Below the pieces are notes generated by a model. That model did not search any database and was not told where the DNA came from. It saw only the letters and a program-made list of their open reading frames with translations. DNA of 64,000 nt from Tubiluchus corallicola (Eukaryota > Priapulida > Priapulimorpha > Priapulimorphida > Tubiluchidae), in contig JAQGDQ010000010.1 in the NCBI GenBank assembly GCA_030141605.1, forward strand, positions 1,241,501 to 1,305,500, given 5' to 3'. Below are positions 2,264 through 30,620 of this stretch, piece by piece. Position 1 is the first letter of the stretch. Every line of letters begins with the position of its first letter. The position numbers and the translations under genes are program-made.

Positions 2264-5200
2264 TTTGTTTCAAAAAAGAATTTTTTTACTGAGAAGCGAA
2301 ATGTGAATGTTATGGCATGCAAAAAGATGCTTACACGTTTTTCCTGTTGTCTCCATTAATCTAAATGAACTTGCTATTTAATTATTTTAACTTGCGGGCA
2401 GGACACCCTTGTTCGTTTGTTAGAAACATAAGCATCTTTATATTTATCAGTAATAATGGTGATGATAATTTTCGTTTTCACAGACATGCAATTGAGGTCC
2501 TACTATTAACAATAGACACAATTACTTTGAACATACTAATTGAAGTTCAACACTTGAACTGCGTGTATATGATGAAACTATGATTGTGAAGTTAGTGTTG
2601 ATTACACACATATATATATATATATATATATATCCATTTTTTACAGTTGGAACCTTACATGGATGAATATTTTGTAACGCAGGCATTCAAAATGGTGGGA
2701 CAGGAACCGATTAATGTAAAAATTATCAGGAATAAAATGACTGGGTTTGTAATTTTTTTAAAATGTGCCAATTTAAAATGTTTAACTAAGCAAAATTCTA
2801 TACTTAGTTTTCCAACTTCAGTCTTAAATACTAAAATATTTATGTGCATCTCCGTATTCCTTAATCGAGCAAAGCAATTCTGGTTACTGTTTTTTGTTAT
2901 TTGCTATTTTTATAGACATTCTGTTTCTAGGTACTTGATTATTATATGTAATACCAAAATCAGCAAATTTTTTTGAAGAATTCTGTTTTGTTGGATTGAT
3001 CTTTGAAGGGACATACAAATTGGGCAGCCACATGTCATTGCAAGAAACTAATGCATTGCAAATACCATTATTTTTTTATAGATGTATAACACAAGAACTG
3101 TCTTCTATTCAACTTTAGCAATCCATGGTAATGAGTTGTAGTAGCTTCATTTAGAGGCTAGTCCTGTACATATAATTTTGAAGCTATCTGCCAGTTGCCA
3201 CTATCTAAAACTACACAGTACAGTGAACAAAACCTTCGTAACCCCAATACTGCACATTTGGCTTCATTAGTGGTTTCTTTGTAATAAAATTTTGCTGGAA
3301 AAACTGTAAGGTTTAATCAAAAAATATCATTGTAGCAACTCATGAAAAATTCTATAATGTCTCTCGTGTACTTGCTGCTATTCTTAGCCAGGACTTTACA
3401 TTATTTTTTAGATAGCAGATTTGAGTTTTATGTCAGTACCTAAAATCCACACTGTAACGTATTGGTTCCATAACTATAAGCTAAAGTAACTAAAGTAACT
3501 ATAGCTATAACTATAATACAAGAAAGGTTTGCTGTTTTATGTGATTGATTTGTTGACAGAATTTTGTAAGGAGTTAGTCAAAGAACAAATCACAGAAGTT
3601 TTGTGTTTTTATTTGATTGGACATAGATTGGAGCGCACTGTTAATTGTCAAAATATTAGAACAGTCCATTTCATTGTAGTGAAGCACTACACTAAAAACA
3701 TGTATCTGTAGAAGAGCTGCTCTTACTGGCTTTCTGGTTTTTTTGCATTATTGATTTCCTACAGATGTCTGATTTGAATGATTTGTTGCTATTCTTAGAC
3801 TTGTAAATGGCCACTCTTTTTTCTTACAGACTTCCTCAAGGCTATTGTTTTGTGGATTTCCAAACAGAAGACCAGGCGACTTACTGCTTGCACAATGTAA
3901 ACAGCTGTGCAATTCCAAATACAACCCCAGTAAGTAGTTACGCTCAGGGCATGGTCAGGCAAATAATAGGCCCTACCTCCTGTATTAGACAGTTGCTTTC
4001 ACTGGAAGAAGGACGAGGAGTTTCTGAGGCTGTTCTTGTTATTTAACGTGATGTGTCCTATCTTACCTACTCTTTGACTTTGTGTGATTTTAGTAGATTT
4101 TTAAGCAGTAGCAGATTTTTTGCTGGTAATGCATGATGCGCTCTGCTATATCTTTTTGCCCGTCAAAACATTTAACAGTGTGTAATTTTCTTGAACGTGT
4201 AGCGATTGTCTGTACATATTACTGTTTTTACACTATTGCATGGACTACAAAGTCACTAGATGCCATATTCTTATTATGAACTTTTTTATTGTAATGATAA
4301 CTTTCCCAAATTGTATATATAATATTTGCCTTCTATGAAAAGGCAATCATTTTAGATATCGATAGCAAAATATGGTGTATAGCAGCGTACACTGTTTGTG
4401 CTTCATTACTTTCAAACATGACTGAGTGACATCTAGCATGTAGTCTTCATACTTTACAACCTATTCATCACGAGAAAATTAAAGCAAACCATTTATAACA
4501 ATTGAAAATAAGATGTGTTCTTCTGAGATTAGCCATGGTCATAATCGTAAAAGAAGAAGTTAAAATGCCCATAAATCTCAAAAAATTCTTTATTTTTGCT
4601 TTAGAAGCTTTCGTCCTTTCGGTCTTCATTAGCTGCACAGAAAGGTACAATAATAAAAATTACAAATATTACGTAAAATATTTATTAATGATTTCTTTCC
4701 CCTTCCTATATTTTATACTATCCTTGAACTGACGATATTGTTGACTAATAAACTAATCATGTATTTTTTATTATTGCATCTTTCTGTGCAGCTGATGAAG
4801 TTCGAGAGGATAAAAGCTTCTGAAGAAAAAATAAAGAATTTTTGAGATTTATAGTGTTTAAAATATTTTTTATTATGAAAAATTCCTATTTCAGCCACGG
4901 AATTTCAACCTAAGGCCAGCCATTCATGGAGGAGGATCAGGAGTGAGGACCCAGTGAGTGACAATCTTTCTGTGATGCAAATATATTAAAATATTTCATT
5001 CTTAAAGTGCTGCAGTTTTATTCCTCTGCAAACTCATGTTTTTTTTTATTTTATTTTGCCATTTACAGTACATCAGTTTATCATCTACTTATTTTAGCAT
5101 TTTGTTTTAATTTAAAGATTTGTTTTTCCATAAAATATTTATTAATGATTTCTTTCTTCTTCCTATATTTTGTACTATCCTTATGTTTTTTCTGATTTTT

Positions 5201-8185
5201 TTTCTTTATTTTTTATTCTTTATTCTTTATTCATAACAGTTTAAGTTTTGTTGAACTGTCAATATTGTTGATTAGATTAATAAACTAATCACGTGGTTTA
5301 ATTTAGAAGAAGCATTTAAGCATGACTGAAACTTAATGCTCATTCTACACGTGGTCACCTCTTGGTAAAGCAACTGCTTTTCTTAATTTCAGCTAAAGCC
5401 ACTGAATTTTTTATGAAATAAGTTTTACAGATTTCACAGTCAGGCAACAGAAATTCTTCACATCTCTGTCATTGATAATGTTTTTCTCTTTCTTGTTTTC
5501 AGGCAAGATTTTTCTCTTTATGTATCTGAACTGTCAGATGATGTTACAGATAGCATATTGTTTCAAGCATTTTCTCGTAAATATCCATCCTGTGTTAGTG
5601 CTAAAGGTAAGTATAGGTACTGCAAATGAGTTATATTTTAAGCAAAACTCTACTGTTCTTGTTTCTTAATGTGAAACCTAGCTTGCTGCATTGTTACAAA
5701 TATATTTGCTTATAATAGAGAGATCAGGAAATGGCAATCAACTAGTAGGTATCAACCTCGCAATAGCCAATCAGGCGCTCTAGCTAGCTAACTGCTCTCT
5801 CCGCTACCTCAGAACTTACTCACAAACACTAGGATAAGTATTCATGCAGGTTATATTCAATCATACCAATCATACCAAATATACTGTGAAATTAAGTGAA
5901 TGTATACATGATTAGATAATTATTTTTACTTATAAATAAATGTTATCGATAGATGAAACAACCACAATGCCAGCCTTAATTTAAGCTCCTGATATTTGTT
6001 TGTTCGAAAATATTTTTGCATCACTTTTTTCATTAAGAATCATGCATCACACCAGTGGAAAGTGATTTAAATTTGTCAGTATTAACTTATGGCATGTGAT
6101 ACTGCAGACAGCCTGTGCATTATAGTTATATGTGTTGATTTTCAGTTGTTTGTGATCAACAGCGACGGAGTAGAGGTTTTGGTTTTGTAAAATTTACTGA
6201 TGAAAAAGACCAGCAGGTGGCTCTGATTGAAATGCAGGGTGCATCAGGAATTGGTCGACGCCACATACGGATTAGTTTAGCAACGCCACGCCGGTTAGTG
6301 AAAATAATTAGTTTTACCAGTTTTAACATGTTAGTGTAAAAGTTTATTTATTTAAGAATGACTAATTTTCTTTTTCAGCCATGCTAATAATAGTTGGCCA
6401 TGTAGTAACAATTTGTCGAAGTTCTCCATAATCTGTTTAAGGATTTATCAAATTGTGGCATGTGAAACAATGAAAAGCAAAAATGAAGATTTTTTTACAA
6501 CATTTAGCAATGTGCAGTAAGCTTAGTTTCAGTTTCATCGGAGGAACATGTTTTGCATGATGTCTGATTTATGAAAATTTGCACAATTGTGGTTTGTTAG
6601 CCATGTTAGGCCTCTGAGAACAACCGTAATACTCAGAGCAATGGGCGGTTGTTTCCGTTGTCAAAATGAAAGAAGTTTCTTAACCAAAGTATACCACAAA
6701 TTGTCTCAAGTCACGTATTATTTCACAGAATCTTCTAGCCTTTCCTTAGAGGCCTAAACCCACTTTACCTCCTTGAGTATTTGGTCTTTATGCACATGGC
6801 TTAGTAAATAGAAGTTGTGCCATTTTTATCCCACTGCTTTTTAAAGAGAGCTGGTATGTCTTATTTTTCTCCTTTTTCTTACAGTTAAAAGGTATACTTC
6901 ATTAATGTTAAAAAGATAATTATTGTTAAATGACCATAATTTCTGTGGTGTTTATGCAGTGGTCTATTTCACATAACAAATGCCAGCCCTTTTGAATTAA
7001 TTCTACTTTTTTCAAAAATTCATTCTAAAATGTGTTCATTTTAGTATGCAGCATCATGACCAGACATCATCTTCTACTGGACATGCAGCTCAGGTTCCTG
7101 CCGCAGCAGCGCCACAATATGCACAGTACAATGCTGGCTCGTATAACCAGTACGGCACATGGCAGTGGTACAACCAGTATTTGCAGTACTCGTACGGAAA
7201 GCCGACAGAAACAGTAAGTTAAAATGTGAATGTAAATGGGAATGAAGTTGCTGAAAATTTTGAAACCAATGGTTTTAGTTAAAATATGATTACACAATAA
7301 CCGTCGATTGTTTTTCTGTCCATTGGTAATTGGAAAAATTTTTGGAGGTCAGCGGCATTTACGTCTTAAGACAAAATGGGTAACATTTATTGCATTCTGA
7401 AATTCACGATTGGATAACTGAAACATTCCCAAAAGATTTATTTGATTAGTTGACTTACCTAGGTTGTTTGGTTGTCATTTGGTGGTATTGTTTTCTTGAT
7501 AATGAGGGCTTTCGTTCATTAGAGCAAATTTGCTCTAAAGAACAAACTCTTGAACAGAGGTTACCTACTGTCATCCTAAAAAGTGATTTTATTAACATTT
7601 TGGGATAACATTAACATGCCTGTAGAGATGTCAGCATTAAAATACTCCAATAAGGTCTATAAATTTATATTCACATCCAGATTATAGTTGAATCTGTTGG
7701 CTGACTGGCTTTTGAGAACAATGCTGACACAATACATCAACACCTAACAATTTTTTATGTTGTTATTTTTCTTGTCATTGTATTGGGCTCTGAAAAGTAT
7801 TGGTTAGTTATTAGTTGATCAGGGACCTTATGCTCCATTAGAAATATGTAAAAGGCAGCCCTTCACATGAGCTTACTCAACAAACAAGACTTCCAAAATT
7901 AACTTGTAAAATTTTATCTCATGTCATAATTAGTAGGGACAATGTCCAAAAAACTGGTCAACAGGTCTCAATAATATTTATGTTTATATACTGTAGGGTA
8001 GTACAGAGTATACACATTCCCATAACAACTATGATCCTGCCATGCCTACTGAAGATGATGAAGATATTGTGAATCACAACATTGAGATAAACACTGATAA
8101 AGAAAATAGTGAACTCATCGAGCGATGCGAAGACCTGTATGTTGCATTAGAAGATTCTAGATGGGATTATGAAAGTGTGAAATGA
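1784..8185 (+). CDS. TRNAU1AP: tRNA selenocysteine 1-associated protein (SECp43), 8 coding exons
   Basis: RNA-binding protein that associates with selenocysteyl-tRNA and supports its methylation and selenoprotein synthesis (family knowledge). Coding exons: 1784-1813, 2647-2744, 3830-3929, 4895-4953, 5503-5606, 6146-6293, 7045-7213, 7997-8185; all junctions are GT-AG and keep frame, total 897 nt, 298 aa, close to the ~287 aa of vertebrate SECp43. Two RRM domains are visible. RRM1 (about residues 5-85) has RNP2 at SIWMGDL, split by intron 1, and RNP1 at GYCFVDFQ. RRM2 (about 100-180) has RNP2 at LYVSEL and RNP1 at RGFGFVKFT. The tail is rich in Tyr, Gln and Asn (residues ~185-236) and ends with an acidic segment. 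The start is the ATG at 1784, which opens the conserved WMGD box and is followed at once by a GTAAGT donor. Exon 1 codes for just ten residues. Identity is secure; the exact first exon is the least certain part. Confidence 0.93.
2609..2633. repeat. (AT)n microsatellite in TRNAU1AP intron 1
   Basis: About twelve uninterrupted AT dinucleotides just upstream of the 3' splice site of exon 2 (exon starts 2647). Its position between a plausible branch region and the acceptor means length changes could alter splicing, but that is inference. Confidence 0.9.
4566..4862. repeat. Inverted repeat (hairpin-type, MITE-like) in TRNAU1AP intron 3
   Basis: The segment 4566-4660 reads as an imperfect reverse complement of 4768-4862; shared pieces include 'ataaatctcaaaaaattctt' opposite 'aagaatttttgagatttat' and 'agctgcacagaaagg' opposite 'ctttctgtgcagct'. 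The ~107-bp loop carries a sequence that recurs as a direct copy at 5128-5290 ('aaaatatttattaatgattt', 'aataaactaatca'). This fits a small inverted-repeat transposon plus a duplicated neighbour. No transposase is encoded. Confidence 0.75.
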
Positions 8186-17600: not shown

Positions 17601-18490
17601 TAAGCTCTACAGGGGTGAGAAATAACTTGCACACTGATTGGGCAGTCAACGAAAATGATTGGCATTACGTTAGACGTCAATTTCGAATAAACTAGATTGT
17701 AATAGGCACATTCACTAGATTTTTTAGATAAATTGTAAACTCAGTAAATGATGAATGTGTACCTTGAAAGGTAACTAGAGTCAAAGCAAACGTTTTACGA
17801 TAGATTTAAAAGGTTAGTAAAGATTTGGAAAAGCATTCATAATACAGATTCAGAAATGCATGTAGTCGTGTGCTGATTTATGAGAACTCTATAATTGAGT
17901 CTTTTACTTTTGTTTTGGAAAATCAGTTTTCACAAACCAACAATGTACAATAAAGAAAGTTTGGATAACAGTTCGAATTACAGATATCATACCAAAATAC
18001 ATAGCTACAATATCTTCTGTTAAGGCGAATAAAAAGCTGGTCATTATGGTGCCAAAGGGACATAGACATGGTACAATTTGACTTCTGCAGTGACAGAAAT
18101 CAGAAAGAATACGGTTTTTATCATTTTTAACAAGTACAGCACAATAATTTCGCTAAACACTTGGGCAAAAACTCAGTAGAAATTTTTTAATACAGTTGAT
18201 AAGTGCACACTAGAATCCTGGATTAAACTTCAGGAGTAACATAACACTGATGGTTGTGTTAGGACCAAAACACTGCTCATCATTGAGACTATGAGCTAAA
18301 GTGAGACACAGACAAGCTACAATGTCTAATCGTGTTCAAAATCATATGCATAAAATTAAAGTTCAAATCACGCTAACTACTTTAATAGTTGCTTGCATAG
18401 TGGCAGAATTAATGGTACTATTTACTGGCATGTAGCTGAACCAGCAACGATCTGTGAGGATATTGAGAATGCAGTGTACTGTCCGAGAAA
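14684..18490. other. Intergenic region downstream of GHITM
   Basis: AT-rich, with the 3' UTR of GHITM at its left end (no clean AATAAA found). Reading frames at 15184-15378, 16219-16401 and 16743-16985 are short and without family features. Short runs of 'aaactaaact' occur near 16695 and 17346. I see no gene or defined mobile element. Confidence 0.5.
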
Positions 18491-18834
18491 GTTCTTTCTA
18501 TCATCACTATTACACGAGTGTTCTTTTCATTGTCATTATTACACGAGTGTTCTTTCTATCATAACTATTACAAGAGTGTTCTTTCTATCATAACTATTAC
18601 ACGAGTGTTCTTTCTATTATAACTATTAAACAAGTGTTCTTTCTACCATCAGTACTACACAAGTGTTCTTTCTATTATTACTATTACACGAGTGTTTTTT
18701 CTACCAACACTGTTACACAAGTGTTCTTTCTACCATCACTATTACACAAGTGTTCTTTCTATTATCACTATTACACGAGTGTTCTTTCTACCACCACTAT
18801 TGCACAAGTGTTCTTCTATTATCACTATTGCACA
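18491..18834. repeat. 29-bp minisatellite, about 12 copies
   Basis: Unit of the form TGTTCTTTCTA-C/T-CATCACTATTACAC-A/G-AG repeated head to tail about twelve times with 1-5 changes per unit. Copies keep 29-bp spacing except for the last, which has lost one base. Because 29 is not a multiple of three and the unit lacks stops in every forward frame, long open frames appear in all three; these are not genes. It lies just beyond the 3' end of the left inositol dehydrogenase-like gene. Confidence 0.95.
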
Positions 18835-19258
18835 TTTTTATTTATGTATCATGTATCATGCAAAGGTGTCCATCATGTGGTGTTTTCAAAGTTTAGTGTA
18901 GAACGATACTAAGAATGTGGGTTTCTTGGTATAAACAGTATTATAAAAACCACCATTTCATGAGTATTTTTATGTCACTAAATGCGCCAAAGTTTCTGTA
19001 TGCCCAAGCATCAAAACTGCTTGCCAAAAATTCGGAATATTCAAGACTAAAAAATATGTAAATTAAAGATTGTTGTCAAGTTGTGCAAATACCTAACTTG
19101 GTGAATAAATATGCAAAAACTGAAAGACTAAATGCAAACACGACTTGTGCTTTGGTAACATATTGGCGAGTAAACTGATAAGAAGGCAATTTGTCAAAAC
19201 ATCCAGATCTCACTTTCAAAAATACCAGTTATGGTTAATTTCTTGGATCCAAAACAGC

Positions 19259-22200
19259 TTATACCGAAGTGTGCTCTCTTTGGCTTTGAGGTGATTTTAA
19301 GTTTACCACACGCCCCTCATTTATTGATATGTTGCATGCATCCGCGACAAGTGATACCATTTCAGGTGCCTCTCGTGTTACAACCGGATCTACTTTACCT
19401 GAAACAAAAATATTTTACCAAGTACCATTTGGATAACATTTGCAAAATCACATTAACAATGCCCAGATTTGAACAAAATACTATATTTCCTTTCAGCCAA
19501 ACAACAATAACCTTATAAATTAAATTTTGGCGCTGTCTCATAATTTACACAGTTTCTTCATTCATGAAAATTACAATATAGGAGTAATATTGTGTCGACT
19601 TAAGTTTATTTAACAGCTTGAAGTAAGATAGGAGTTTAACTACTGGTAGTTGAGTTACAAGATGTAAACCTAGGAAATTCTCATTTAAACTCTTTATTTG
19701 GTTAGCTAAATAGCAAATACTACGTCTAGGGGTTCGCATAACAGATGTGCAGAAGATGATATTTTTCACTAATGGCTTCGGTTCATATGACTGTTAAACC
19801 TAAGTCACACTTCGAGACAAATTGGTTCCTGAAGTCTGTACTACAAAGGCAACACTAAAGAAATTAATTCCCAAAGTTAACATAAGAAAAAGTGACATCT
19901 AAGGTCTATAGAAATTTAAGGGACTATGGGTTTTGGTATGCAGATAGTTAACACCACTTTTTTTTAATGCAGCACTATTATTTATTTGTTTCATTATTAT
20001 TAACAGGGTTTATAATTAGTAGTTCTTGTAGTATCAGAGTTTGTTAACAGCTTTTGTATTATCAGAGCTTGTTAGCAGGTCTTGTATTATCAGAGCTTGT
20101 TAGCAGATCTTGTAGTATCAGAGTTTGTTAGCAGGTCTTATAGTATCAGATCTTGTTAGCAGGTCTTGTAGTATCAGAGCTTGTTAACAGCTTTTGTATT
20201 ATCAGAGCTTGTTAGCAGGTCTTGTAGTATCAGAGCTTGTTAGCAGATCTTGTAGTATCAGAGTTTGTTAGCAGGTCTTATAGTATCAGAGCTTGTTAGC
20301 AGGTCTTGTAGTATCAGAGTTTGTTAACAGGTCTTATAGTATCAGAGCTTGTTAGCAGGTCTTGTATTATCGAAGCTTGTTAGCAGGTCTTGTATTATCG
20401 AAGCTTGTTAGCAGGTCTTGTAGTATCACAGTTTGTTAGCAGGTCTTGGGAGTAACAGAGCTTGTTAGCAAGTCGTGTATTATCAGAGTTTGTTAGCAGG
20501 TCCTGTAGTAACAGAGTTTGTTAGCAGGTCCTGTAGTAACAGAGCTTGTTAGCAGGTCTTGTAGTATCAGAGTTTGTTAGCAGGTCCTGTAGTAACAGAG
20601 CTTGTTAGCAGGTCGTGTAGTATCAGAGCTTGTTAGCAGGTCTTGTAGTATCAGAGCTTGTTAGCAGGTCTTGTAGTATCAGAGTTTGTTTAGCAGGTCA
20701 TGGGAGTATCACAGCTTGTTAGCAGGTCTTGGGAGTATCAGAACTTGTTAGCAGGTCTTGTAGTATCAGAGCTTGTTAGCAGGTCTTGTAGTATCAGAGC
20801 TTGTTAGCAGGTCTTGTAGTAACAGAGCTTGTTAGCAGGTCATGTAGTATCAGAGCTTGTTAGCAGGTCTTGTAGTATCAGAGTTTGTTTAGCAGGTCAT
20901 GGGAGTATCACAGCTTGTTAGCAGGTCTTGGGAGTATCAGAACTTGTTAGCAGGTCTTGTAGTATCAGAGCTTGTTAGCAGGCCGTGTAGTATCAGAGCT
21001 TGTTAGCAGGTCTTGTAGTATCAGAGTTTGTTAGCAGGTCGTGTAGTATAAGAGCTTGTTAGCAGGTCTTGTAGTATCAGAGTTTGTTAGTAGGTCTTGT
21101 AGTATCAGAACTTGTTAGCAGGTCTTGTAGTATCAGAGTTTGTTAGCAGGTCTTGTAGTATCAGAGTCTGTTAGTAGGTCTTGTAGTATCAGAACTTGTT
21201 AGCAGGTCTTGTAGTATCAGAACTTGTTAGCAGGTCTTGTAGTATCAGAACTTGTTAGCAGGTCTTGTAGTATCACAGTTTGTTAGCACATCTTGGGAGT
21301 AACAGAGCTTGTTAGCAGGTCTTGGGAGGAAAAGACCTTGTCGGCAACGAATGGATCTTGTCCTTGGATCTGACCTTCTTAAATACTATTCAGAGCAGAT
21401 CACATGACTTGCCCACGACTGGACGGGCACTTTCTTTCAAGTCTGAAATTCAAAATTTAATTAATCCTGGGTTTCTATAATCATACTGAGAGACATGTAC
21501 CTACCCTCAACCACATCAAAGAAATGCTGCATTTCGAGCTTGTAAGCAGCGTCGTAACGTTGTCCAAACGAGTGATGAATTGGATTGGTTAAGCACCCTT
21601 CATTATTGGAGTATTGTATATTGCCTTGGCACTCATTTCCAACGATTACCATACCAGCAGATCCAAATACCTGTCAATACCTGTATACATATAATTTAGC
21701 ATATACATTTTAAATAACTGTATTTTTTATCATTAAAATTATGCAGTGCTTGAAATTCACTCAAAATACAGTAATTTAAACACTAAGAAGATCTAAAATG
21801 ATATTAAGTGACTATAATACATCAAGCAGCATGTCCAGGAAGCATTTTGGAACTACATAAACACAAATATGTAAACCAAAATTCTACACTAAACTTACCA
21901 CTTATGCCTACCTCTAAACGTTGGTCATATCCATAAACTGCATGACGATTTAAATCGACAATACCGATAGCACCAGAAGGAAATTTCATTGTCACAGCTA
22001 TCGAGTCTACATCATTAATGGCAGCTATTTCAGGAATGTGAGCATGAGCAGTTGCATACACAGTTTCAGGCCATTCCCTGATTATCCAGCATATTAGGTC
22101 AATGTCGTGAACAACACTGTCGTGACAAATTCCGCCTATGATACCAAAAGAACTTATTCGATTAAGTACCTTAAAACTAACAAAAAGTACATTTAGTAGT

Positions 22201-25200
22201 TATGCGCTCCTAGGCCATTTTGTAAAATTTATTAAGACATCACAAACAGTTCTCAATTAAGTATAACAACTTGTGTCATCAGATAGCAAGGGCTGGCTCT
22301 TAGTAGTTTAACACTCTAGGCAAAAGTATTTGTAGCACCCCTTTCTCTACACCTAAGAGCCCCCACCCAACCCCACTCCAAAAAATTTCTGCAATTTCCA
22401 CTACACACTCTTTATGTACAAACTCTTGGCTAAATTTTCCTTCACACTTTTCATTTGAAATTTTCTTAATCCCTAATTCCTCTTTTTCACGTACATCTAT
22501 TATTATTAGGGGGGCAGTGGTGTCGGGGAGATTGTATAGGATGGTAAAATCCCACCCCCCGACACTTTGCTGAGGCCTTCGACAGGCCCATCGCAATTAT
22601 TCACTGCTATACGTCTATTGGTCGTACTCGGCAAGCCTTCCAGCTTGCTTCAGATACGCCGCTAGTTTTTTCAGGTTTAAGTTCCCTACAACTACTCTAA
22701 GTGTTGTATTTTTATTTCCCAGACATTTGATACGAGCACCCTGGTAGGCAGTGCATCGCCCCACGTGATGGTCCGGTGTTTCGTCTACCTGACCACATTT
22801 CGGGCAAATCGCGGATTGTGCTCGACAAGTGGTTTTTTTATGTTTTTGGAGATTACAGTGTCCGGTTAGGACCTGTATAACCATGTTGAGTTGAGTTCTA
22901 CTGAGACTCAGGAGCCTATTGCAGACTCGGGCCGAGGCCCAGCCCACATGTTCCTTTGTTCTCTTGCAGTCCTCACGATTATTCCACGACGTTTCCCATC
23001 GTTTTAGACTCCATCCCTGAATCGCGTAGACACAGCTAGCGTAAGGGACGGGAGATAGGGTTCTGGTCCCTCCGGAGAGAGCTCAGATCCCTTTTTAGCA
23101 AGTTTGTCCGCCTCTTCGTTACCATGTACTCCTTCGTGTCCAGGAATCCATGTAACCAAGACTCGGTTTCTTTTTCCAAGTATGTTCAAGTTTTCAACAC
23201 AACGTAAAACCGAGATAGATTTTACTGTATTGTTTTCAGTAGCTTTAATAGCCGCCTGGCTGTCTGACAGGATGACTATTGATTGATTCTGGAGTCCTTC
23301 CGAAGACATTATCTCCGCCGCTTGTGAGATGGCAAAAACTTCTGCCTGGAAAACAGTACTCAATTTCCCAAGATAGAAGAACTCCTCCAATACTCTGGAC
23401 TCAGTCGGATACTCGATACGTATACCTGCACCGATCCTTCCGTCCAGTTTGGAACCATCGGTATAACACCTGACACAGTTCCTATCCATTTCGCCTTCCG
23501 ATTTGATAGCGATTTCTCTTTCCTGAATCTGGCATTCGAAATTTCTTTCGAACACGCGTGTTCTTTTTCTTAAATCACCCGGCATATGCAACAGTTGGAG
23601 GTCGCGCCTATAGCTATTGCACACATCGATATGACTTTTAGACTTGCCAAAAGTTCCCACGGTCTTCGCTGTCCAGAGCCCCGCCGTATCTATACGGTAT
23701 GACCCTCGGACCGCCTCCGACCGAATGAACTCGTCTATTGGTGTGATATTCAACAACATCTCCAATGCACCGGTAGGAGTACTTGGGAACGCTGAAGAAA
23801 TCATTAAGCAAGCTAATCTCTGTACCTTCTGGAGCATGTTCCTGAGGTACATTTTTTCCAACCCGCTGACCCAGGACACACACGCATACGTCATGAAAGG
23901 ACGTACCATTGCCGTGTATATCCATTTCATGATCCGCGGTTGGATACCCCACGTTTTACCAACAATTTGTCTGCATTGCATAAGTGCCGCCGTCGCCTTG
24001 TTGGTGACCCGTGTTATATGGCCCTTCCAAGTCAGTTTACTGTCTAGGGTTACCCCTAGCAGTTTCGCTTCATTGGAGAGTTGGAGCTTCTGTCCATTCA
24101 TCCAGAGATCCCCAATATTTGGATTTCTCTTGTTTGTGAACATGATTACTTCAGTCTTACTACTGCTGAATTCTAGTTCAGTTTTCCTGGACCATTCAGC
24201 GGCAATGTTAATTACATTTTGCGCCCTCCTTCTGACCGTCGATACGTTCGCACTAGCTATTAGTACTGCCAGGTCGTCGGCATAGGCTTGTGCATAAATT
24301 CCATTTTCTTCAAATTCCCTAAGCAGAGAGTTCAAGACACAGTTCCATAGCAAGGGAGACAGTATTCCGCCTTGGGGGTTTCCCTTTACTACTTCCCTCT
24401 TTACCGTGGCATCACACAGCTCTACTTGGACCGTACGGCACCTTACCATGTTCTCAATCCAGCGGATAAGAACTGGCGATACCTCAAGTTCAAGCAATGC
24501 GGCGGATATGCTATTAAATGAAATGTTATCGAATGCCCCAACAATATCCAAAAAGACACCTAGTGAGAGCTTCTTTTTAGCAAGACTACGTTCAATACGC
24601 TGTACATACTCGTGCAGAGCAGTTTCCGTGGAAACGCCTGCGCGGAAGCCATACTGCACATTGGATAGTCTTGCTTGTAATTCAGTATCCTCGTTCAATT
24701 GAAAGAGGACTATTCTCTCCAACCATTTCAGTTGAAATGACGTTAATGTTATCATCCGGAAAGACTTGACTTCTAAATAGCTATTCTTTCCGGGTTTCGG
24801 CAAAAATACTCCTTTCCCTTCCTTCCAGGATCTCGGTACATAACCATACCTGAGACATGTCTGGAAAAGCATGAGGTAGTGTTTTTTAATGTATTTCCAT
24901 CCTTTCTGCAACAGGACTGGATATATACCATCCGGTCCCGGAGCCTTGAAAGGTTGGAATTCAAACAGTGCCGCTTTCACTCGTTCTTCCGAGCAAATGG
25001 AAGCGATGAATTCCTCATCCACGGTCGCGCAAACAGGCAAGTCCGTGGATGTGTCTGGTTCCGTTACTCGACTCCCTGGTGATAGGGTGTCGAGGAGCCG
25101 GTTTAAAGTTTCCTCCGGTGAACTGGTTAATTTACCGTCTTCTTTATACACACAGCTTAACTGCGCTGCTTTATTTCGGCGGAGGACCTTTACCAACCTA

Positions 25201-28200
25201 GCAGTTGGTGCCTGATCTTCCATCTTTTCCGTGAAACTCCGCCAGGATTGGCGTTTCGCCTTCCGGACGGCATTTTTGAATATAGACTGGGTTAGCTTTC
25301 TTGTTTCCCAGTCGCGTTGATTTTTAGTCTTAGTGGCTCTCCTGCAAGCCCTGCACGCCTCCTTGCGGAGACGGCTTAGCTCCGGATTCCACCATTTGTT
25401 CCCATCCTTCTTCCTCTGCCTACGTAATGGGCAAGCAGTTTCATAAGAATGAATAACAGCAGCCTGAACTTCATCAGCCAAATCCTCAATATCCTCATTG
25501 GAGGACACCTTGTATTCCCGGTTCAGTTCTGGAAGTTTATGCTCAAGTTCTTCCGCATACTTTTCCCAGCAAGTACGGCGGATGTTCCTGATGAGTGGGT
25601 TTTCTTTTGAAATACTGCTTTTCACCAGGAATCTTATATACATGTGGTCCGACATTTTGTAAAATTTATTAAGACATCACAAACAGTTCTCAATTAAGTA
25701 TAACAACTTGTGTCATCAGATAGCAAGGGCTGGCTCTTAGTAGTTTAACACTCTAGGCAAAAGTATTTGTAGCACCCCTTTCTCTACACCTAAGAGCCCC
25801 CACGCAACCCCACTCCAAAAAATTTCTGCAATTTCCACTACACACTCTTTATGTACAAACTCTTGGCTAAATTTTCCTTCACACTTTTCATTTGAAATTT
25901 TCTTAATCCCTAATTCCTCTTTTTCACGTACATCTATTACATCAGTTTCATCATCTTTACAACCATGACTCTGGTCTGGTTGCAAATATACATTAGCGAA
26001 TCTTTTAGCTGTTCAATCTCTGCAATTTTTTTCCTTTTTCGTTTCCTGTACTATGCTCCCGAAAGCTTCACTTCCTGATAGGGTTATCTGCCAAATTAGT
26101 TGAAATTTAATGCTTTCACAAGAAACACTTTTTAGTTAGTGTAAGGATCAAAAGGCATTAGTTTTTACTTAGTTCTGCTGTTCTAAGCATACAGTACAAA
26201 GTAGTGGCAAAAGTAGGATTATGCGTTAGTAGTGCCTGCAACAAATGACATAATCTTGTGAAGCCAGGGTAATGTGAAAAGTAGGAAGTGTTTTGTACGG
26301 AAAGACTGCTCTGTGAATCATGAATCACATATTGCGACATGGACATAATGCAAAAAATTTGTTTCATTTAATTAAAGCGTCGCGAATTTGCATTTAAACA
26401 ATAACACATACTATGTTAATATTTACATCAAATTCAAAATAAAAGAATTGCTTCTAAAATTTGGCGCACCCCAAAATTTGGTACCCTAAGCAACAGTCTA
26501 GTTTTCCTAGTGGTAGAGCCAGCCCTGTATACAGCTTGCTGTTATTACCACTTGGAGCTATTACCACTATTACAGCTTGGAGTAACTATATTCAACTCTG
26601 CATACAGTTCAGCTTATGTAGAGCAAATTTATTCTTTTTTATACAGATCACTCTCTTAATTGCCAATGACCACTTTAAAAATATTGAATGCAGGTCTAGA
26701 AAAACAGAATGTAACTAGACTGATGGGTACCTACTGAAGCAATTGAAACATATAATTAACAGAGAAACACTTGCGTAGTGAAGAAGTCTACAATAAGAGC
26801 TGGCTCAGCACTTCATCTTATAATTTAGTCAATAATAGTGAACCATACATGTGTATCTGGAGTTCACATCTTTGCTTGGAAAGTTGACTTCAGGATTGCT
26901 TTGACTAGGTAAAATGCAGTTGCAAAGGAGCAGGTGCCTGAAGTTAGCCCTGCTTATTCAATGAATTTCAGTGACTCGGTATGTCAGGTTTTATTGATTT
27001 TGGATGTATCTTGGATGTCTTAAGCGTGCTGTATGAATTACAAGAAAAAACGGTACTTGTGTTAAGCCATATTTACCAGACGACTGGAATTGAGTGTGCG
27101 TTATTCAATGATTGGATGCAGAAAAACAGATCATTCCTTACAGCAATCTTTTTACAAGAATTTGTTACTTGGCAGCAAAGTACTACTGTACAAACATTGC
27201 AGGTAACATTTACTCCTATTTAAAGAATGCGCATTCTGTTCTGCATTTCAGGTTTTTTTGTACGGGACAGGAAACACGTTTTGCAGTTGTTTCCCATGAG
27301 ATATAACACAATTCTGGCATTTGGTAAAAGTGACAAGACAAAATACCTGAATACCTGATGCTTTATAATATTCCACGGGGGCTAATGCACCATCACGACT
27401 GCAACATTTCACCATTTTTATTTTGCCCAGCTCACCGGCACTAGCTTTCCTACAGGCTGAACTGAATCCTGGATCAAACCTCCGATTAAATGCACAGTAA
27501 AGTGCCAGACCTCGAGTTTCTGCCAAGTCATAAAGCTCACTAATTCGCTTGTTATTGTTTGCAACTGGTTTTTCACAGAACACTGACTTGCCTAAAATAC
27601 ATATACACATATATCATAGTTATCTAGCGCAACTCTTGCAACATGGAAGTGAATGCACCCAAGAACTCAATTAATTGTAAATTAACAGAGAAACTGCTCA
27701 TTGAAAACACAAGCTATCAATCTGTTATGTTTAAAACTGATGTTTAAGGCAAAATTATGAAATTTTTACATTATTTCCAATGTAGTTCAATCAATATGCA
27801 GTATGTAATTTTTTAATGTACAACAATGTACTTTATTAGAATACTGAAGAGAATTTCACAAGTTGAAAAAAATAAGAACCAAGTAAATTTTAATATATTT
27901 TTGGATTCCGTTTCTTCCATCTTCTTGCAATAACAACCGGCGAATGATTAATTATTACTTATTTGCAGTGCATTGAAAATGGGTGATACAGACATGTAAC
28001 ACTGAGTTTCCAACCACAAAACTATTTTCTTAAGTTATAAAAGAATCCAAATTTCACAAAATTTAAACAAACCATAAACGAACGTAAAAATTAACTCTAG
28101 AACATCTTATATTGAACTTCCCTATCTGTTAAAACAGCAGGAGCTGTAATTCAGGGCAAAACCTAATTAACGCTTGCAGCAACAATTTATAACTAATTTA

Positions 28201-29300
28201 AGTAAGATTAACCTACCTGCATTTAAAGCTTTTCGGACTAAATCCTCATGTGTCCAAGTAGGAGTACATATAACAACACTATCTACACTGAAAGATAAAA
28301 ATATCAGTCATTAGAATTTTATTTATCAATGCAATGCATTGTTCCTGAATAAATTCAGCATGTTCTTACAAATTTATAACACTCAGCATAATGAAATGAA
28401 TTACTTAAAGTATAACTTTGAAAGTATAGCAATACAAAGAACAAATTTTAGGGTTAAACATATTCACACAGAACAAACTTAGCACTTCATAAAATGGCTA
28501 ATATAAATAGTTTTGCTGCCATCTTTCTTATATTGTGTGATCATTCTATATTGCTTCATCATTTTAAAAGTTGCATGTAAATAACATGTCATTTATGAAT
28601 ATGAGTGGTATGCAAGTTTTATATCATCTATGTAGTCCCATGTACCCTGAAGCCAAGGTACATAGACTACGAGCATAGTATAAACCTTGTATTACAAAGA
28701 GGCAGCTAACGAGGTTTTTGCCCAATATTAGATTCACACCAGCAAATGAACAGTACATTGTAAATACACAAAAGTGTATATTTCTGACAACACTTACATG
28801 GCTGCTAAGCTACTTACAGTAGACTAAGCAGACGAGTACTTAATCCAAATATTTTACGAATGGCACGCCTGAATTACTTTTATACCCACACGCATAGCCA
28901 ACAGACATTCTCTACAGCCATGATACCATATCATGGACGCCTACTTAGACTAATAGGAAACGCATTTTACTACTAACCCATTACACCATTAACCGGTCAA
29001 AAATGGTTTGTGATTTTGATCTCACGTATGCATATACAGACTGATTTCTATTATTAATTTTCAGACTCACGTGCAATCATTTAGTACAATTTTTGTGTCA
29101 CTTGTTGGCAGTGCTGTGATACCTCTGTCTGGTGCTACCAGTTTCAGTCTTTTTTCAACAACATCAGCATCTACATCAATCACATATTTTAAGTGAGCCC
29201 GTGGATTGTTTAGAAGATTTTGTAAATGAATACTTCCAATTCTGCCCATCCCAAATATAGCTATTCCATGCCTTTTCGGTGCTGGACCATTATCTGCCAT
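19259..29300 (-). CDS. Inositol 2-dehydrogenase-like oxidoreductase, left tandem copy (6 exons)
   Basis: Predicted cytosolic NAD-dependent oxidoreductase of the Gfo/Idh/MocA family, most like myo-inositol 2-dehydrogenases, which oxidise myo-inositol to scyllo-inosose. Exons in order: 29300-29071, 28287-28217, 27591-27355, 22135-21912, 21670-21505, 19398-19259; 1068 nt, 355 aa. The Rossmann loop GMGRIG is at residues 17-22 and an acidic strand end (VIDVDAD) follows. The EKP motif gives the catalytic Lys108. HDSVVHDID supplies the Asp185 and His189 spaced four apart, as in bacterial inositol dehydrogenases. No signal peptide. The coding start is preceded by a strong 3' splice site (exon edge 29308), so there is a separate 5' non-coding exon. 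A second in-frame-incompatible donor lies nine bases past the chosen exon 3 donor. Introns 3 and 5 are inflated by mobile and satellite DNA. The substrate is inferred from family, not shown. Confidence 0.9.
20022..21325. repeat. 28-bp satellite-like tandem array, ~46 copies, in intron 5 of the left dehydrogenase gene
   Basis: Head-to-tail copies of a 28-bp unit, CTTGTAGTATCAGAG then CTTGTTAGCAGGT, run for 1.3 kb. Variants recur in blocks: TTTGTTTAGCAGGTCATGGG appears at about 20684 and again 199 bp further on, showing a higher-order unit of about seven repeats. It ends about 180 bp before exon 5 of the host gene on its other side. The other gene copy lacks it. Confidence 0.97.
22216..22502 (-). 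repeat. 287-bp target-site duplication, copy at the 3' end of the retrotransposon
   Basis: Identical to 25653-25939 except one base (C at 22367, G at 25804); both are 287 bp. The two copies flank the retrotransposon exactly, and sequence beyond them differs. It contains the left end of a hAT-like element (from 22287). Confidence 0.93.
22503..25652 (-). mobile_element. 5'-truncated non-LTR retrotransposon with reverse transcriptase and RNase H
   Basis: A 3150-bp insertion in intron 3 of the left dehydrogenase gene, antisense-agnostic in effect because it lies on the same strand as that gene. Its 5' edge (25652) falls inside the last motif of the AP-type endonuclease domain, so the rest of the endonuclease and any ORF1 are missing. 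Its 3' edge ends in TAATAA repeats rather than poly(A), as in I-like elements. The RT plus RNase H plus CCHC layout fits the I/R1/LOA group; I cannot place the clade further without a tree. It is flanked by the 287-bp direct repeat. Confidence 0.93.
22615..25655 (-). pseudogene. Retrotransposon ORF2 remnant (endonuclease tail, RT, RNase H, zinc knuckle), frameshifted
   Basis: One open frame covers 25655-23004 (883 codons); its first ATG is made from flanking DNA and is not a native start. Order: end of the AP endonuclease (SDH motif, residues 2-4); a basic linker; reverse transcriptase with motif A aspartate in FLDIVGAFDN, NPQGG and the YADD catalytic box; then RNase H with all four expected acids (TDGS, QAE, LSDS and the late EAD). 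Near 23030 the frame shifts: the adjacent frame carries on through GWSLKRW into a C-terminal domain ending at 22615 with a CPKCG...H....C zinc-binding pattern. Thus one indel separates RNase H from the zinc domain. Otherwise the RT and RNase H look intact, suggesting a fairly young insertion. Confidence 0.92.
25653..25939 (-). repeat. 287-bp target-site duplication, copy at the 5' end of the retrotransposon
   Basis: Partner of 22216-22502 with one mismatch in 287. This copy is continuous with the rest of the hAT-like element to its right, so it shows the pre-insertion arrangement. Confidence 0.93.
25724..26527. mobile_element. hAT-like non-autonomous DNA transposon, interrupted by the retrotransposon
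   Basis: Left end CAAGGGCTGGCTCT (25724-25737, duplicated at 22287-22300) and right end AGAGCCAGCCCTG (26515-26527) form a 13-bp terminal inverted repeat with one extra base on the left. Subterminal sequences on both sides read like the common 'GGCACC...CCTAGG' hAT ends: 'ctctaggcaaaa...gcacccc' on the left, 'gcaccccaaaatttgg' on the right. About 804 bp before the nested insertion. No convincing 8-bp target duplication remains and no transposase is readable, so it is an old deletion derivative. Confidence 0.65.
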
Positions 29301-30620
29301 TTTACTTTCTGCAAAGAAAATTCATCATCATTTAGAATAGATTTTTGATTTTCTGTACAAATCCCGCTACCAATCACCCGAAACAAGAACATTTTTTCGA
29401 AAACACCAAAGCTTTACAAACAACAGTAATCACTTTTCTTGAAAACACAATCAACACACAAAGTAGACGCCAGTAAATGCAGGCATGAATGATTGACTGA
29501 CAATGCTCAATTGCACTGCTCATTTACCAAGCCGAGAGTTTCTAGAAATTTGTTGTTAGGGCAAAATAGTGAAGTTCTGCTAAGAATGTGCCCAGTGATT
29601 GTGATAAGGTTGAAGCTTTGTAAACAACAGTGTTTATTGAATCTGCACTGTGTTTAATTCTTTGTTGTGTCAATCTTTCATCTGATTGTATAATCGGTGA
29701 GATTAATTGTGCCAGTCAGCCAGTGTCCAACCAGCTGCTCAAAACTGATGAAGCAAAAAGGAAAAAGTCTTAATGCAGCTGTCACTAGCTACAGCTCTTA
29801 ACCTGTGTTTCAGAAATCTATATATGTGCTATTCTGCTTCAGAATTGGTGTGATGTTAACGTTACCCTCATGCCTAGCCCCGAATAGTTAGTAATACTCA
29901 TTATACAATATCATTAACCATACTAAAATATGTGTGTCGAAGGTTAAGTCATCTATTAGAATAGAGGAAAACAATCAGTAATGACAGTTGTCAGCAAGAA
30001 GACGTGACTCAGCAGTAGACGATGAAGGTTGATAAAAAAATGGTCCTAGAAGGAAGACAAAGATTGTCAGTGTGATATGGAACTGAAACTATGGTAAGTT
30101 CTCACGCATCCTATTACAGAACAAAAGGCACACTCGCTGGAGATACTGAAGGAGATCATTGGCACATGCCTCTTGAAGCACCTTGGTACACAGCGAGGCC
30201 ATACGATTTGAAGTAAGAACGAACATATCACACAGTGTTAAATTATTTAAAGCTGCACTACTACTGCTCAGTCTTGGTCATTCTAAGAAACTGTTCAAAC
30301 ACTAGGGCCTACTGGTAGGCAAGTAATGCAAGAACTAAGGCAACAGCATGTTTCTTTCTCACTGTGTAGTGAAGAAACAGGATAGTCAAAAAGAGATAGT
30401 CGTTAGTGCATCAAATTAAAATCTTTTTTAAAGAAAGAGTGAGGATTTCACAGACACAAAAGTAATACTTTAAGAAGTAAATCAAAATTTATAGATGAGG
30501 AACATAATACTTAGAAACTATGTTTTGAATAATGCAGTGTGCAGCCCATAAAATTCCTTAATAGTCTCAGTGAAGATTTATATTGTTGTTTAGCTATTTG
30601 CCTGTGTATTAATATAGATG
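29301..30620. other. 5' flank of the left dehydrogenase gene
   Basis: Contains the 3' splice site of the first coding exon at 29309-29310 (minus strand) and presumably an upstream non-coding exon and promoter, which I cannot pinpoint. A related phrase, GCTTT-A/G-T/C-AAACAACAGT, occurs at about 29411 and 29614. No protein-coding feature seen. Confidence 0.45.

Follow-up and report, generated by a model that had tools for sequence, protein, structure and literature searches.

The question raised by this locus is whether a pair of 287-bp direct repeats bounding a retrotransposon arose as the target-site duplication (TSD) of its insertion, when the usual TSD length is approximately 5 to 20 bp. 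The locus lies in a 64,000-nucleotide stretch of the Tubiluchus corallicola genome (contig JAQGDQ010000010.1), referred to here as the window, which contains no N letters; coordinates without a contig name are window positions. An earlier sequence-only reading had proposed that two 287-bp copies with one difference ended exactly at the element edges, and this was confirmed by alignment. The copies, at 22216-22502 and 25653-25939 (spacing 3437), have a single difference, C/G at unit position 152; the left copy abuts the element at 22503, and the right copy begins immediately after the 5' truncation point of the element at 25652. A 287-bp match with a single difference is far beyond chance. Both copies are assigned to the minus strand, in element orientation the left one being the 3'-side TSD copy and the right one the 5'-side copy. 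At 22503, where the left copy meets the tail, the plus strand reads the 3' tail TTATTAGGGG; the boundary between tail and target is ambiguous by one TAA unit and no further (the left copy ends CTATTA, then TTATTA).

The insert itself (22503-25652, minus strand, 3150 bp) gave Pfam matches to RVT_1 and RNase_H, corresponding to part of ORF2, and carries a TAATAA tail. It aligned with 98.4% identity to positions 2723-5868 of a full-length relative of 5868 bp (C2165:52304-58171), and since this alignment starts at about position 2723 the window copy is 5' truncated. A frame shift near the end disrupts its ORF2. The full-length copy adds an Exo_endo_phos_2 endonuclease and, in ORF1, a weak match to DUF4780 that falls below the Pfam cut-off. 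Family copies, 97-99% identical, were found in approximately 30 places, of which about 25 are independent. The endonuclease, the reverse transcriptase, the varied 5' ends and the one common 3' end are those of a LINE with an APE endonuclease, and an RNase H domain (PF00075) after the reverse transcriptase, together with the TAATAA tails, was found as in I-type LINEs. The domain order and TAA tail, which are the basis of the label, suggest that the family belongs to the I group (I/Loa-like type).

One internally deleted copy, flanks included, recurs on six contigs (C2107, C2074, C2072, C1974, C1831 and C1752; L057-L062), and all six have a second reverse transcriptase match at the identical spacing of 549,393 bp. 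They seem to be redundant assembly contigs, and their copy was counted as one insertion event. At C2087:61043-72540 two copies of the family face each other head to head, their 5' ends separated by N.

Whether the repeated DNA belonged to the target or to the element was examined across the 343.5-Mb assembly. Only two full-length matches to the 287-bp unit were obtained, namely the window copies; all other matches covered parts of it at 71-86% identity (mostly 72-80%), reflecting the resemblance of the unit, from position 167 onward, to an old dispersed repeat. An empty site was built by joining the flanks (22502 to 25940), and is not a true allelic empty site; five relatives of the old repeat (L003, L005, L006, L007 and L008) aligned across this join without the LINE, L003 over 645 alignment columns. 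Because these relatives cross the 25939/25940 boundary in the joined site, the right copy and the right flank retain the ancestral order, while the left copy contains no more than the initial 120 bp of the old repeat, which the element cuts off. Two other origins of the repeat were considered and rejected. It is not part of the LINE, as the flanks vary from copy to copy and, in full-length copies, element sequence continues beyond the truncation point; nor is it a dispersed repeat normally found beside the LINE, as the old-repeat relatives cross the empty site without it. Since the full unit occurs at two places only and these relatives cross the insertion point without the LINE, the 287 bp are target DNA. 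Direct target repeats therefore abut both ends of the element, and the repeated DNA is non-element and single copy in the empty site, as in TSDs made by target-primed reverse transcription. The length of 287 bp lies outside the usual range; length is typical of a TSD and not defining, as long cases are known (PMC5223499). The proposal that the repeat is a giant TSD is thus supported.

A single intron of a gene for a GFO/IDH/MocA-type oxidoreductase (Pfam PF22725, PF01408), the exons of which span 19259-29321 on the minus strand, holds the LINE together with both 287-bp copies. The LINE has the same orientation as this gene, and the next exon is approximately 50 bp away, with exon edges inferred by eye. 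The same gene region also holds two tandem arrays, at 18433-18873 (29-bp period) and 19892-21200 (28-bp period, over 1.2 kb).

The sequence-only reading had also called for a genome-wide survey of the element and its duplications. Duplications were measured for every family copy with both flanks readable; C1723, C25 and two copies on C2087, where the 5' flanks read N, were left out. Fifteen copies had a measurable duplication, and these fell into two size classes, 11 short (6-14 bp) and four long (287, approximately 655, 884 and 1081 bp), with none among the 15 between 14 and 287 bp; giant duplications thus recur in this family beside ordinary ones. The short duplications measured 9 bp at L064, 11 bp at L054, 12 bp at L051 and C383, 13 bp at C1790 and in the internally deleted copy of the six contigs, and 14 bp at L053, L065 and C162; a further 12-bp duplication at C1705 adjoins a 92-bp tandem array, and that at C373 (6 bp) is weak. 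No duplication was found at C215:1380295, C10 or C1846, the genome-wide check being weak for the latter two on account of repeated flanks.

Besides the window copy with its single mismatch, long duplications with exact edges flank C1461:1205755-1208510 (884 bp, 100% identity, with three additional bases at its 5' junction), C2025:50461-52640 (about 655 bp, 95.5%, ending in a 39-bp satellite) and the C2165 copy (1081 columns, 99.7%). The last is the longest, and its element begins at the full-length 5' end of the family. No full-length match beyond their own two sites was found for the 884-bp unit or for the 270 bp tested of the approximately 655-bp unit, and a search with the initial 145-150 bp of the C2165 unit gave just two matches, 6.95 kb apart. 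The single difference in 287 bp and the absence of any in 884 bp mark recent insertions, as had been claimed for the window copy from its one mismatch; the C2025 copy seems to be older. Among the four long-duplication insertions, the window copy (L039) and L049 both lie on contig C1461, within 60 kb of each other. In addition, the 3' flank of one insertion (C2087:61043-64186) has a near-identical counterpart (L069, C448:69276-69675) that continues without the LINE, the break falling at T/TAATCATG; this is an empty paralogous or allelic site.

Long and short duplications start alike: 11 of the 14 with the first-nick context in view begin at or beside TA. In the window the first-nick position is the TSD edge towards the right flank (25939/25940), with the empty-site context CTGATG/TAATAGATG, and the putative second-strand break, 287 bp from it, is the TSD edge towards the left flank (22215/22216), with the context ACAAAATG/GCCTAGG, both in element orientation. 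With a similar TA-containing motif at the start of most duplications of either class, there seems to be nothing unusual about the first nick, and it is the second-strand break that would differ; judged from these motifs, the first nick appears to be the same in both size classes.

The explanation that we favour strongly, from a small sample of 15 insertions, is target-primed reverse transcription with an ordinary first nick, a remote second-strand break and fill-in, in a family that finishes its insertions in two ways. A recently active RNase H LINE with an APE endonuclease would have nicked the bottom strand at a usual TA-type site and primed its cDNA there. The top-strand break supplying the 3' end for second-strand synthesis would have been made 287 bp downstream instead of approximately 10 bp, and fill-in on both sides would have duplicated the intervening 287 bp; the three other copies would have been completed by the same route, over distances of about 655, 884 and 1081 bp. 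The family would accordingly have two finishing routes, one with the second nick close by (6-14 bp) and one with a remote break. The duplications, their uniqueness, the common first-nick preference and the two size classes are observed, and the nature of the remote break and the reason for its frequency in this family are inferred: the break, 0.3-1.1 kb away, was probably made by the host, for example as a replication or repair nick, or may have involved joining to the sister chromatid.

The alternative that survives best, though we consider it unlikely, places the cause in a host property, such as weak nucleotide excision repair (NER) or a like defect, so that LINEs of all kinds would be completed from remote nicks, as in human cells deficient in XPA, XPC or XPD. 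The size range of the duplications does fit NER-deficient cells (PMC5223499). Against this, short duplications prevail among the measured copies of the focal family, and XPA_C, Rad10 (ERCC1) and Rad4 (XPC) domains are encoded; these attest gene presence, pathway function being a separate matter, and on that basis NER loss would not be the obvious cause. Furthermore, a second young family of LINEs (its 3' end is in L079) showed no second near-identical copy upstream for any of 17 independent 150-bp 3' flanks. Such a search has a lower detection limit of roughly 100 bp, and its equivalent on the focal family had exposed the C2165 duplication. Comparison of the two families gave Fisher p = 0.038 for measured duplications (4/15 versus 0/17) and p = 0.10 when the copies without a duplication were added (4/18 versus 0/17).

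An assembly artefact, in which merging of filled and empty haplotypes or closure of a gap wrote one stretch on both sides of the element and the true duplication was short, is more doubtful still. The assembly does contain whole redundant contigs, and N gaps stand at the 5' end of several family copies. None of the four long-duplication loci contains N, however, little sequence is shared at the joint, in three of the four the two duplicate copies are not quite identical, and the second LINE family shows no long duplication in the same assembly. Four false joins exactly at the 5' edge of an element would be needed; that at C2165 would coincide with the element's true 5' end, which makes an artefact unlikely. 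Least probable by far is a LINE landing exactly at the junction of a pre-existing tandem duplication, which would leave an identical final structure but requires an exact junction hit on four separate occasions, with no other trace of tandem duplication in any of them.

Target-primed insertion completed from a remote break is thus the preferred account of the four loci. A further step, which we advance only tentatively and rate below even chances, is that the ability to integrate in another way belongs to the LINE family and not to the host: second-strand synthesis would start from a break 0.3-1.1 kb away and regularly copy up to a kilobase of host DNA around the element. The second-strand break, by which LINEs finish their insertion, is poorly understood, and one natural family with ordinary and giant duplications and the same first-nick preference offers a comparative system for what sets it; the comparison gains value from another LINE family in the same genome that was not seen to make giant duplications. 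Such insertions also illustrate one way for LINEs to duplicate host DNA long enough to take in exons.

Among known elements, C. elegans Rte-1 is reported to have flanking repeats of about 200 bp, and the Drosophila I element ends in a TAA-repeat tail. The I element and related RNase H-bearing LINEs resemble the focal family in endonuclease, reverse transcriptase, RNase H, TAA-repeat tail and, for most focal copies, duplications of approximately 12 bp. Somatic I insertions of Drosophila have a median duplication of 12 bp (PMC8090852), and no description of a 0.3-1.1 kb class for I elements was found in the literature read. For zebrafish ZfL2-2 in chicken DT40 cells, target alterations have likewise been put down to where the second strand is cleaved and to end joining by the host, but in 24 of 25 wild-type insertions they did not exceed 20 bp (PMC2666801), unlike the long class of the focal LINE.

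A close parallel is human L1, an APE-type LINE with an ordinary first-nick site, in which loss of NER gives duplications of 0.1-6 kb, the large ones being explained by a remote second nick (PMC5223499). Some 5'-truncated L1 insertions in HeLa cells have extremely long duplications (Gilbert et al., as cited in PMC2912911). The L1 data come from marked elements in cultured cells, where duplications above 100 bp account for no more than 10% of insertions in repair-proficient HeLa cells and exceed that figure only where repair is impaired (PMC5223499). The focal LINE, in contrast, is a natural, inherited family in a genome with NER gene domains, and 4 of its 15 measured copies (about 27%) are long; this excess over the 10% HeLa figure is suggestive, not settled (p = 0.056). 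No published case of a natural LINE family with giant duplications was found in the open-licence papers searched. Kilobase-scale duplications are already known from human L1 in repair-deficient cells, and the unusual part is a natural family in which they make up about 27%.
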